A stretch of DNA of 46,000 nt from the NCBI GenBank assembly GCA_938017975.1, contig CALIKQ010000068.1, positions 1-46,000 on the forward strand. The letters are read 5' to 3'. Shown piece after piece: positions 24,114 to 27,312 of the stretch. Origin of the DNA: an uncultured Pseudomonadales bacterium. GTDB taxonomy: Bacteria > Pseudomonadota > Gammaproteobacteria > Pseudomonadales > Azotimanducaceae. Position 1 is the first letter of the stretch. Every line of letters starts with the position of its first letter. A program made the position numbers and the translations under genes. The notes below the pieces were generated by a model. The model made no database searches. It saw only the letters and a program-made list of their open reading frames with translations, and was not told the origin of the DNA.

Positions 24114-26102
24114 TTAGAGCTCAGAAAAGGGCGTAATCGTGTCCCTAGAGAGCAGCACAATGCTGAGGTTATGCTCAAGGAGTCGCCTCAGTGATTCTTG
24201 AAAAACCCTTTTGTTATACATGGTCTTGTTTAATTCGATGATAAGGGCTTGTGGCTCTGCGTAGAGAGCCCTTGCAAGTCCGAGTTGTAGCTGCATCGTC
24301 GCATCAAAACGATGATGTTGAGAGCTGATCCGGGTGTTTAGTCCAAGCGGGTGACGACGGACGCCTGAATTCAGGCCCGCAAGGTCGATGATGCGTTGCA
24401 AATGCATCAGGCTTGGACTTGGAGCAAATAATGTGATGTTGGCAGTGATGCTGCCGTTAAAAATGGGCGTTTGAATCGGAACAATCCCTACTGGAATAAC
24501 GCGATCGAGATCGAGGATGGATGTTTCTATCGAAGGCCGATGCCTCGTTTGAACGTCTTCAAGTGCGATCGTTTGTGCAACTTCAAAAAATGATTGGTGA
24601 TCTTCTAGGGTCTGAAAACGCACGGTCCCTTGATTCGGCAATCGACCGTTGGTCGACGATGATTGCTCATCAACCGCTACAGCGCTCACTTTCTGAGGAT
24701 GTTCTACCGGGGTGATGGAAAGCGGATTTTTATCCGTCGCTTGCTGCAACCGCCGCATACTTTGCTCTCGACTCAACGTTTCTCGGATAAAGTGATTCAG
24801 GGTAAGACTGTGAGTGACCAGCTGAGCGCGAAAGATGAGTATCAGATAGAAGCTCCCGATAGAAAGGGCATCTGCAAAAACTTGGGAACAGATCCAATAG
24901 AGTAATCCGCCGTGGCAGATTTGATTCAGCACCTGAGCGCCCAGTGTGGATTGCCAGTGCTGAGCCCTAAGGCTTCGCATTGCGTTATGGAGTCGCTCGA
25001 GGCGCAGATCATTGCCCTTGATGCAGTCAAATGACGAGCGAAAGTGCCTGATGAGCTGCTGATGCTGAATGAGGTCATTGAGATTGCCAGAAAATTGTTG
25101 TTTCTCTAGGTGCTCAAGTCTCTCTGCTTTTTGAATCACGTCTCGAATCCGCCAGCTGCTGAGTGCAAGAGTTATGCAGCTCCCCAATAAAATAAGTGCG
25201 CTCACACCATCAATGCGACTCAAAAGCGCGAGATACCCCAAAATGACAAGGACGCTCGTTACTGCCAGAGTTGCATCTCTATTGTAAAATTGGCAGAGCA
25301 TGGGCAAGTCGCTGAGGGTCGCGTGTTGCCGCTCATCGTCCGGGGACGACCCGGGCAGGATATTCCCTATTGGGCCCAAGTAACGGCTAAGGATTTGGTG
25401 GTGGGACCTCCGGTGGAAAGTCTGAGTACCCTGCAATAGTTTGTGCTCTTGAACCCAATCCAGAACGGCTGCCATTAGAGCGGTTATGATAAGCGCTGAA
25501 ATTGCGGTTCTAAGGACCGAGATGTCTCCACTGCTGATGACTTCATCGAGGATAAACTTGATGATAAGAGGAGAGCAGATCGCCAGCGCAGCGCTGATTA
25601 ATGCGCCGATAACTTGCGCTGGGGCGATTGTTCCCAAATTGACTGAAACAGTTTTTGACGAACCCGGGAGGAGGTGATTGGCTTGTTCCTGGGAGATCGG
25701 GTCGGGGCTGAAAGTCAGTGCAATACCTGTGAAAGCATCAAGTAATTCGCTTCGACTGACCTTGAGCCTTCCGATGGCAGGGTCATCAATCCAATAACTC
25801 TGGAATCTAATTTCTCGTAGTACGACAAAATGCTCAAATCGCCAATGCAGTATGCAGGGTAAATCGACAGCCTTGAGCTCTAAGGGATCGAGCTCGATGC
25901 CTAGGCCGATTAGGTTAAAGTGCTTTGCGTGGGCAAGGATGTCTCTCGCTGACCATGGCTGGACAATCACGCCATTTGTCGCCTCAAACTCCTCGAGGGT
26001 TGTTGTCGATCCATAATGTTGGGCGATCATAAGAAGACTCGCTAGTCCACAGCCGAATTGAGTGCTTTGTAAAATGGGTTCTCTACCGACCAAAGTGCGC
26101 AT
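24114..26102 (-). CDS. C39 peptidase-ABC transporter-like protein with degenerate ATPase domain
   Basis: A 662-residue protein with the layout of a peptidase-containing type I secretion ABC exporter. The N-terminal C39 domain (about 1-130) has the full catalytic set: Gln12 and Cys18 in ILQSTQFGCGLASLLMI, His91 in FEHFVVL, Asp107 in DDPAIG. A transmembrane domain follows (about 160-455). The C-terminal 170 residues align with an ABC ATPase (Q-loop region VPIQTPIFNGSITANI, then LARALYAEP), but the Walker A segment is absent, the LSGGQ position reads RFDATMQ, Walker B/Glu reads LIIELNKT, and the H-loop His is replaced (LLSRDT). The frame is open throughout. ATG 26102 is chosen over a TTG at 26138 because the conserved domain starts just after it; it overlaps the HlyD-like gene by 20 bases. 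ATP-driven transport looks impossible without a partner. Confidence 0.85.
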   Translation of the reverse strand: MRTLVGREPILQSTQFGCGLASLLMIAQHYGSTTTLEEFEATNGVIVQPWSARDILAHAKHFNLIGLGIELDPLELKAVDLPCILHWRFEHFVVLREIRFQSYWIDDPAIGRLKVSRSELLDAFTGIALTFSPDPISQEQANHLLPGSSKTVSVNLGTIAPAQVIGALISAALAICSPLIIKFILDEVISSGDISVLRTAISALIITALMAAVLDWVQEHKLLQGTQTFHRRSHHQILSRYLGPIGNILPGSSPDDERQHATLSDLPMLCQFYNRDATLAVTSVLVILGYLALLSRIDGVSALILLGSCITLALSSWRIRDVIQKAERLEHLEKQQFSGNLNDLIQHQQLIRHFRSSFDCIKGNDLRLERLHNAMRSLRAQHWQSTLGAQVLNQICHGGLLYWICSQVFADALSIGSFYLILIFRAQLVTHSLTLNHFIRETLSREQSMRRLQQATDKNPLSITPVEHPQKVSAVAVDEQSSSTNGRLPNQGTVRFQTLEDHQSFFEVAQTIALEDVQTRHRPSIETSILDLDRVIPVGIVPIQTPIFNGSITANITLFAPSPSLMHLQRIIDLAGLNSGVRRHPLGLNTRISSQHHRFDATMQLQLGLARALYAEPQALIIELNKTMYNKRVFQESLRRLLEHNLSIVLLSRDTITPFSEL

Positions 26103-27312
26103 CCTGTTTGGGATAAAGTATTCGGTAGAGGCGCTCAATCAAAGCGGACTCACCGGTTTCTATCCAGGCATGTACAGGAGCCCCTGGTGCGAACCAGAAA
26201 ACCTCGCCTTTCGAATCGATCAATGATTTAGGCAATAAAACCGTCGCCTCGAACCTTGGTTGCTTTAGATGGCTAGCCGGGCTCCCCCAAACTTTGATGG
26301 GCGCGATTGTTTGGATGACGGTTGTGAGAGTGCCCTGCCGAATAGGATCGCTGCTGCTTGGTTTTAATTCTATGGTGTCGCCAGGTTTCAGCGCTGATCG
26401 GACACTACCAGATAATTGCAGCTGAGCGGTCAGCATTGGTGACGTGCTGAGGATATTGAAGAGTTTGTCCTCTTTTTGAACAAGGTCGCCGTTTTGAACA
26501 AACTGCTGTACGAGCTTTCCCGACCACGGCGCATTTACGACTCTTCGGCGGGGTAACCGGCGTTCAAGCTCGTGCTCTAACTGGTTCAAATCAGAGTGCT
26601 GCTTTCTTAATTTGTTGCGCAGTTTGATCTTCTCCCGATCGATATTGATCACGGCTTGTTCGAGTTCGAAAGCTAGGTCCTCCTGTATAATCTGAGTTTG
26701 GGCGACACGGATCCTTTGCTGCATGAGGGGGTCACTGAGCCTTTGCCATTCGAGGCTGGTAAGGAGCTTTGGCTGTCCCAGCTGCTGAACTTTTCGAAGA
26801 TTATCCTGAAGCGTTTGAAGTCTTGATGTCTCGATGTTTAAGATGGCGCCATTGCGCGCCCGATGTGCTTTGAGTTTTGTGCGCCTTGAAGCGTGACTGA
26901 GGCTCAGGAGCTCATGGTCCTCCTTCCAGGCTCGCATGAGTTGTTCGCCCATTTCGATTTTGCGCTTGATGAGATCAGTTCTGCGGCGATCTTGATCGGT
27001 GGCGAACTCTGGCGAAATCACGGCGAGGACATCGCCCTGGTCGACGATGCTTCCTTCATAGAAGTTAATCTGAACAATTTTTCCCGACTGAGGAGCGCTC
27101 ACTGTTTTCGCTGGGCGCTGGACAAGCATTCCGGTGACCATGGTTCGCTCTGGCAGCGGCAGAATTAGCAATACGCAGCCCAAGATCAGCGATATCAACA
27201 TTGCGACGACCAACCATCGATTGACGTAGAAATGAGATCGTGGTGACCAGCCAGAATTGGAGGCACGATGATAGGCTTTTAAGGCGCGCGGATTAAATTC
27301 CGGTGAAGTCAT
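26083..27312 (-). CDS. HlyD-family secretion adaptor
   Basis: A 409-residue membrane fusion protein. One membrane helix (about 32-52), then the first lipoyl half (70-100, VSAPQSGKIVQINFYEGSIV), a long alpha-helical hairpin rich in Arg, Lys, Glu and Gln (about 105-250), the second lipoyl half (NAPWSGKLVQQFVQNGDLV, about 260-280) and beta-barrel segments to the C-terminus. This is the adaptor type that links an inner-membrane ABC exporter to TolC. It is directly upstream of, and overlapping, the C39/ABC-like gene, so both are presumably made together. The start ATG 27312 has no strong ribosome site. No TolC homologue and no double-glycine leader peptide were found nearby. Confidence 0.9.
   Translation of the reverse strand: MTSPEFNPRALKAYHRASNSGWSPRSHFYVNRWLVVAMLISLILGCVLLILPLPERTMVTGMLVQRPAKTVSAPQSGKIVQINFYEGSIVDQGDVLAVISPEFATDQDRRRTDLIKRKIEMGEQLMRAWKEDHELLSLSHASRRTKLKAHRARNGAILNIETSRLQTLQDNLRKVQQLGQPKLLTSLEWQRLSDPLMQQRIRVAQTQIIQEDLAFELEQAVINIDREKIKLRNKLRKQHSDLNQLEHELERRLPRRRVVNAPWSGKLVQQFVQNGDLVQKEDKLFNILSTSPMLTAQLQLSGSVRSALKPGDTIELKPSSSDPIRQGTLTTVIQTIAPIKVWGSPASHLKQPRFEATVLLPKSLIDSKGEVFWFAPGAPVHAWIETGESALIERLYRILYPKQDAHFGR

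Follow-up and report, generated by a model that had tools for sequence, protein, structure and literature searches.

The window studied here is a stretch of 46,000 nucleotides, positions 1 to 46,000 of contig CALIKQ010000068.1 (assembly GCA_938017975.1), from an uncultured bacterium of the Azotimanducaceae (Pseudomonadales). It contains a gene whose product has a C39 peptidase domain, the transmembrane domain (TMD) of an ABC exporter and the remnant of an ABC ATPase domain (Table 1). We use the word motorless for this protein and for relatives with the same ATPase losses. The frame runs uninterrupted through 662 codons and overlaps the gene of a HlyD-type adaptor by 20 bases counted from the ATG (26083-26102), as the initial annotation of this DNA had described.

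Judged by sequence, the C39 domain has its catalytic Cys18, His91 and Asp107 and the oxyanion Gln12, and these four residues were invariant across 11 aligned sequences. The top PDB sequence match of the protein was 6mpz, the protease domain of an AMS/peptidase-containing ABC transporter (PCAT). An ABC exporter TMD is supported by the fold and by the score of Pfam ABC_membrane (PF00664; residues 164-430, 4.6e-9, 36.8 bits, cut-off 28). ABC_membrane_3 gave 16.4 bits, under its cut-off of 27, and the protein also has the ATPase remnant. Pfam and the alignment therefore agree with the initial annotation on the peptidase residues and the TMD. The best NCBIfam profile was NHLM_micro_ABC1 (TIGR03796; 158.8 bits, best stretch residues 10-459), which fell far short of its cut-off of 853.3; no leader_NHLP match was found on the window's contig.

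The initial annotation had also claimed that Walker A, the signature and Walker B with its catalytic Glu were lost, and the alignment confirmed this. The Walker A column reads TLEDHQSFF in the window protein and GPSGCGKST in intact relatives, and the signature column FDATM versus LSLGQ; Glu-Leu stands in the Walker B Asp-Glu column and Arg653 in that of the H-loop His. No ABC_tran match was obtained with Pfam at E<=1. A single-sequence search did recognise the ABC origin of the C-terminal part (e.g., residues 529-625 against an ABC protein, 1.7e-7).

A search of 15 genomes of the genus found the motorless gene in nine, without inner stops. Apart from the window's own genome (G000), these were G158 (60% identity to the window protein; copy cut by a contig end), G153, G104, G135, G087 and G022 (32-33%), G116 (27%), and G163 (24%). 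Three genomes (G127, G051, and G148) had a version with an intact ATPase, 26-27% identical over peptidase and TMD and 689-691 residues long versus 662 in the window protein. It has GPSGCGKST, LSLGQ, Walker B and the H-loop His; the Q-loop Gln was unclear by eye, so that these genes are intact by motifs only. A tenth motorless copy, in G142, was frame-broken and was excluded from the alignments, motif table, selection tests and tree. In G071, all that is left at the locus is an adaptor stub of 153 aa and an ATPase remnant of 169 aa (39% identity to the G116 remnant over 138 columns); peptidase and TMD are gone, and G071 had no C39 match. The two pieces are adjoining open frames (L032:1495-2462, minus strand) and may represent decay or a retained fragment. 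No match was found in G168 (84% complete).

In the motif table, the C39 residues were present in 9/9 motorless genes, and Walker A, the signature and Walker B Asp-Glu in 0/9 each; G163 retains the Walker B Asp, not the Glu. The three intact genes at the same locus all had the C39 residues, Walker A, LSLGQ, and the H-loop His, and two of them had Asp-Glu, with an unresolved base in the third. All 22 other homologues in the table kept the GK[ST] loop and Asp-Glu. The H-loop His was lost in the window protein as had been claimed, but this is not a general trait, as five of the eight other motorless relatives kept it; the relative cut by the contig end stops short of that column. ABC_tran matched none of the nine motorless genes (E<=1) versus both intact genes scanned. 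Among 51 aligned homologues, 44 had ABC_tran at E<=0.01, and the seven without a match equalled the number of motorless rows in the set; those seven rows had no match at E<=1 when scanned singly. PF00664 had no match at E<=1 in the divergent relatives L009 and L014. By these motifs, the ATP-hydrolysing domain of a PCAT is absent, as is an ABC ATPase that would energise secretion as in a type I secretion system.

Gene order was kept over up to ~18-20 kb in motorless, intact and G071 genomes. The conserved neighbours were TLC-like, aminotransferase-like and tripartite-transport genes on one side and SDR, MATE-type and MetA-type genes on the other, all but the TLC-like one assigned by eye. Wherever the contig extended that far, the TLC-like gene lay next to and convergent with the motorless or intact gene. 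Contig ends limited the comparison to the HlyD/SDR side in G135 and G158 and to the part with the TLC-like gene and the adaptor in G163; some loci lacked one neighbour in the list, and the listing script favours the longer of two overlapping frames. Because this order is shared, it is most likely that the gene lost its ATPase where it stands and was not replaced by one from elsewhere.

A maximum-likelihood tree was built on the first 470 residues (peptidase and TMD, with most of the ATPase domain excluded) and midpoint rooted. The homologous loci (78) were gathered with an alignment query, since a single-protein contig scan found none; 13 family rows were tried, of which 8 failed the start/length filter, and 19 external rows picked by hand and L034 were added. 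G148 (L013) was outside the first alignment and inside the tree and motif table. The nine motorless rows formed one group (99/97); this group and the three intact rows were united (100/99) to the exclusion of the 25 other rows. Branches inside the motorless clade were long, and that of G163 (L014) was so long that its placement is unsure. The tree is consistent with a single motor loss, which probably took place within the genus. The initial annotation had held that orthologues with intact motifs would speak against its reading. Such genes do lie at the same locus in three genomes (two of the three scanned with Pfam), but they form a sister clade and so more likely represent the ancestral state. 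In a sample of 390 genomes of the order, residues 525-662 gave a match at 1e-6 in 137; the window gene scored 1.3e-86, G022 (the sample held two genomes of the genus) 1.5e-21, and the next match 3.9e-11. Within the samples searched, the motorless state was seen in this genus only.

Selection was estimated as omega (NG86, 200 codon bootstraps) in the motorless pairs G104/G135, G087/G022, G104/G022, and G000/G158, which are not independent, having sequences and lineages in common; dS exceeded 1.4 in G000/G158. In this order, omega was 0.169, 0.17, 0.15, and 0.094 for C39; 0.288, 0.187, 0.21, and 0.161 for the TMD; and 0.144, 0.162, 0.165, and 0.148 for residues 537-662. Two further pairs agreed (0.09-0.23), so that omega was at most 0.29 on these segments in all six pairs; the adaptor gave 0.15-0.24 in three pairs. 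Residues 491-536, the former P-loop half, had 0.64, 0.324, 0.557, and 0.406, with intervals of 0.09-1.79, 0.1-0.8, 0.19-1.21, and 0.16-0.85 that are wide because the segment has only 41-46 codons. Identity in this segment was 0.35 versus 0.66-0.71 elsewhere in G000/G158, and 0.68 versus 0.65-0.71 in the intact pair G127/G051, where saturation of dS in three of the four segments left a TMD omega of 0.08 as the only value. The linkers, where computable, gave 0.13-1.21 (residues 135-160) and 0.14-0.68 (residues 455-490). These values indicate purifying selection on the peptidase, TMD and C-terminal half of the remnant, and weaker selection on the P-loop half and the two linkers. The pattern is that of a protein kept working, while constraint on its former P-loop part has dropped to about that of a linker. 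The expectation that relatives would share the ATPase losses and conserve the peptidase residues was thus borne out.

The AlphaFold2 model of the window protein (51 sequences) had a mean pLDDT of 83.6 and a pTM of 0.77. In the ATPase remnant it contains a helix (505-520) after the first strand, a helical part and core strands; confidence fell below 50 at residues 467-490 and 518-534. Foldseek ranked PCAT1 first (8vpb_A, E 7.7e-23, 16% identity), and HlyB sixth (7sgr_A, E 4.7e-21, 15%), behind leading PCAT1 chains. The motorless protein resembles PCAT/AMS transporters (PCAT1, LahT, CvaB, MchF, ComA) in its C39 domain with the four residues, its ABC-type TMD, the position of the ATPase domain and the overall fold, and its HlyD partner is as in Gram-negative exporters. 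Unlike PCAT/AMS transporters, it lacks Walker A, the signature and the Walker B Asp-Glu, and no strict leader motif adjoins its gene. With HlyB-type transporters of type I secretion systems, which have a C39-like domain, it shares the TMD-ATPase layout and the HlyD partner. HlyB is otherwise its mirror image, with the ATPase kept and the catalytic Cys absent according to excerpts of PMC8277102, and the opposite pattern that the initial annotation had ascribed to it is upheld.

We therefore propose, with moderate confidence, that the protein descends from a PCAT, is functional despite the loss of its ATP motor, and has been retained to act as a membrane-anchored C39 leader peptidase together with a HlyD adaptor. 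Besides pairing with another ATPase subunit, the initial annotation had offered another energy source or a leader peptidase feeding the adaptor; the last of these fits best. The protein would dimerise like PCAT1, and the ATPase remnant may survive as the surface on which the coupling helices and the peptidase dock. According to excerpts of PMC6959990, PCAT1 without ATP is inward-facing with its peptidase docked and cleaves, for which its core is required. Once ATP binds, the peptidase comes off and retains little activity. Since the motorless protein would not bind ATP, it should stay in this cleaving state, inward-facing with the peptidase docked. A double-glycine-type leader would be cut from a small peptide and the cargo offered to the channel and HlyD/TolC. 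The cargo might pass passively, by the proton gradient or not at all. The probabilities of this proposal and its rivals overlap, because the proton-driven and no-transport alternatives are sub-cases of this export step.

If the proposal is true, either C39 complexes can act simply as membrane peptidases, or ABC-type channels can acquire a new source of energy. The motorless clade with its peptidase, channel and adaptor would be a natural separation of cleavage from ATP-driven transport, for which strict coupling has been proposed in PCAT1 (excerpts of PMC6959990). Its intact-motor sister at the same locus would serve as a matched control, and the retained half of the ATPase domain would mark surfaces that matter apart from ATP. 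Among the matches listed in open-licence literature (titles and abstract starts), no C39 transporter with a dead ATPase domain was described.

Several points weigh against the proposal. For NukT, cleavage is reportedly ATP-dependent and the peptidase and ATP-binding domains are said to be cooperative. Before PCAT1 can take a new substrate it has to disengage and be reset, which requires ATP (PMC6959990, in part), and an ATPase residue of HetC is required in vivo according to excerpts of PMC10986499. The omega intervals of the P-loop half overlap those of the other segments, and the linkers are about as free, so the relaxation is not specific to the P-loop. The copies in G142 and G071 suggest that the system is dispensable. 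No substrate was found either: no open reading frame with a strict double-glycine leader occurred in 11 stretches (the window and ten related loci), and the bacteriocin-leader profile TIGR01847 had no match at E<=1 in G000. A looser leader pattern gave 2-38 start-variants per stretch, and small frames conserved in at least three loci looked by eye like parts of neighbouring genes or frames antisense to them. TIGR01847 matched in only one of the nine motorless genomes, G158, and there below cut-off. TIGR03793 (E<=1) matched in 13 of the 15 genomes, down to 1.1e-11 and never over cut-off; the one match read (G000:C5) was rejected as a leader, since by eye it resembles a nitrile-hydratase alpha-type protein. 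In the intact-locus genome G127, two over-cut-off bacteriocin-type leaders lay ~5-7 kb from the C39 domain of a second transporter; the leader profile is therefore able to find such peptides in the genus. The transporter and the two leaders lie at L034 (G127:C40) and G127:C40:15403-17302; the transporter is an ordinary C39 transporter with an adaptor gene.

A further-reaching version, which we regard as rather unlikely, is an ATP-independent machine for peptide processing and export, a PCAT after loss of the motor and before loss of the domain. Leader cleavage in a permanently inward-facing complex, together with the proton gradient or with folding of the cargo on the outside, would drive its passage through the channel and HlyD/TolC or rectify it. 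A peptidase-scaffold without transport, that is, a regulated membrane protease or substrate sensor with channel and adaptor purely structural, is similarly doubtful. It suits the failure of our searches to find an energy source or substrate, and the need of PCAT1 cleavage for its core (excerpts of PMC6959990) would explain why TMD and ATPase remnant are retained. The conserved HlyD gene, which overlaps the motorless gene and is probably co-transcribed with it, points instead to a periplasmic conduit.

We consider it unlikely that the membrane domain has become a proton-driven secondary peptide exporter. There is a precedent in SbmA-like peptide transporters, whose ABC-type membrane domain works without an ATPase after separation from an ABC ancestor and a switch of energy source, although SbmA imports (PMC13316013, in part). 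Purifying selection on TMD and HlyD would also fit. SbmA is not known to have a C39 domain or an ATPase remnant. No titratable residue specific to the motorless clade was seen in the membrane part of the helices, whose limits were set by eye: E327 (7/9), H347 (8/9), and H372 (7/9) lie in cytoplasmic extensions by this reading, and K182 and D186 are common to motorless proteins and intact sisters. No proton relay was seen in the motif table.

It is improbable that the protein is half of a heterodimer in which a second ABC exporter subunit supplies the ATPase, the pairing suggested in the initial annotation. Exporters with one degenerate site do exist (TM287/288, TmrAB, and TAP, all PDB matches by fold), and like the motorless protein they have lost an ATP-site consensus. 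Only one of their sites is defective, and both subunits have Walker A, unlike the motorless protein, which lost Walker A, signature and Asp-Glu. A composite site joins the Walker A of one subunit to the signature of the other, so that both sites would miss one half and neither could be completed. G000 has other ABC exporters (10 ABC_membrane matches, the motorless gene included), but this gene is the only match on the window's 46-kb contig. Matches numbered 2-12 per genome in the nine motorless genomes (completeness 62-98%) versus 11-13 in the three genomes with the intact locus, so these counts give no sign of an additional partner. The three of the nine other matches in G000 that were read are an MsbA-LpxK fusion, a type I secretion transporter that has an adaptor of its own beside it, and an exporter of 623 aa whose ATPase is intact.

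Equally improbable is a decaying gene that lost its motor first. The reduced locus of G071, the broken copy of G142 and the missing match in G168 would suit decay, but nine copies are unbroken (one ending with its contig), the omega values are low on the conserved segments and on HlyD, and the long branches suggest an old state. In most lineages the gene is not a pseudogene, although its copy is broken in one genome and largely deleted in another. A sequencing error or local frameshift, named as a possible objection in the initial annotation, is dismissed because the same state recurs in separately assembled genomes.

Table 1. Positions of the motorless gene, its domains and its neighbours in the window.
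Feature	Position	Strand	Details
Motorless C39-TMD-ATPase-remnant protein	24114..26102	-	662 aa from ATG at 26102; alternative TTG start at 26138 gives 674 aa
C39 peptidase domain, residues 10-134	25701..26075	-	Pfam Peptidase_C39 7.6e-26; 6mpz match; Q12, C18, H91, D107
Transmembrane domain, six long helices, residues 161-457	24732..25622	-	Pfam ABC_membrane; AlphaFold2 helices
Former P-loop half of ATPase domain, residues 491-536	24495..24632	-	No Walker A; weak constraint
C-terminal half of ATPase remnant, residues 537-662	24117..24494	-	Conserved; FNGSITANI; HRFDATM at signature position; no Walker B Asp-Glu
HlyD-type periplasmic adaptor gene, upstream and overlapping	26083..27312	-	Pfam HlyD_3, Biotin_lipoyl_2; omega 0.15-0.24 in three pairs
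TLC-like membrane protein (PF03219, ATP/ADP translocase family), 406 aa	22832..24052	+	Convergent conserved neighbour; part in system not claimed

Two further components of a type I secretion system were found. A HlyD-family adaptor adjoins the inner-membrane component, with HlyD_3 at 42.9 bits, over its cut-off of 22.2, and TIGR01843 at 55.2 bits, under its cut-off of 208.65. A TolC-type channel is encoded in G000 (PF02321, four matches in two frames).

Two of the other exporters of G000 had features of their own. The type I secretion transporter on C38 (L139:2069-4186, minus strand) combines a weak C39-like domain (PF03412, 1e-5) with an ABC_tran match of 6.1e-31 and adjoins its own HlyD-like gene, a mirror image of the motorless protein within the same genome. 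The 960-aa frame on C9 (L140:1303-4185, minus strand) fuses an MsbA-like exporter (ABC_membrane, ABC_tran) to LpxK (PF02606, E 1e-95), joining a lipid A flippase to a lipid A kinase; this fusion may also account for the ABC_membrane matches in 962-980-aa frames of nine further genomes of the genus.
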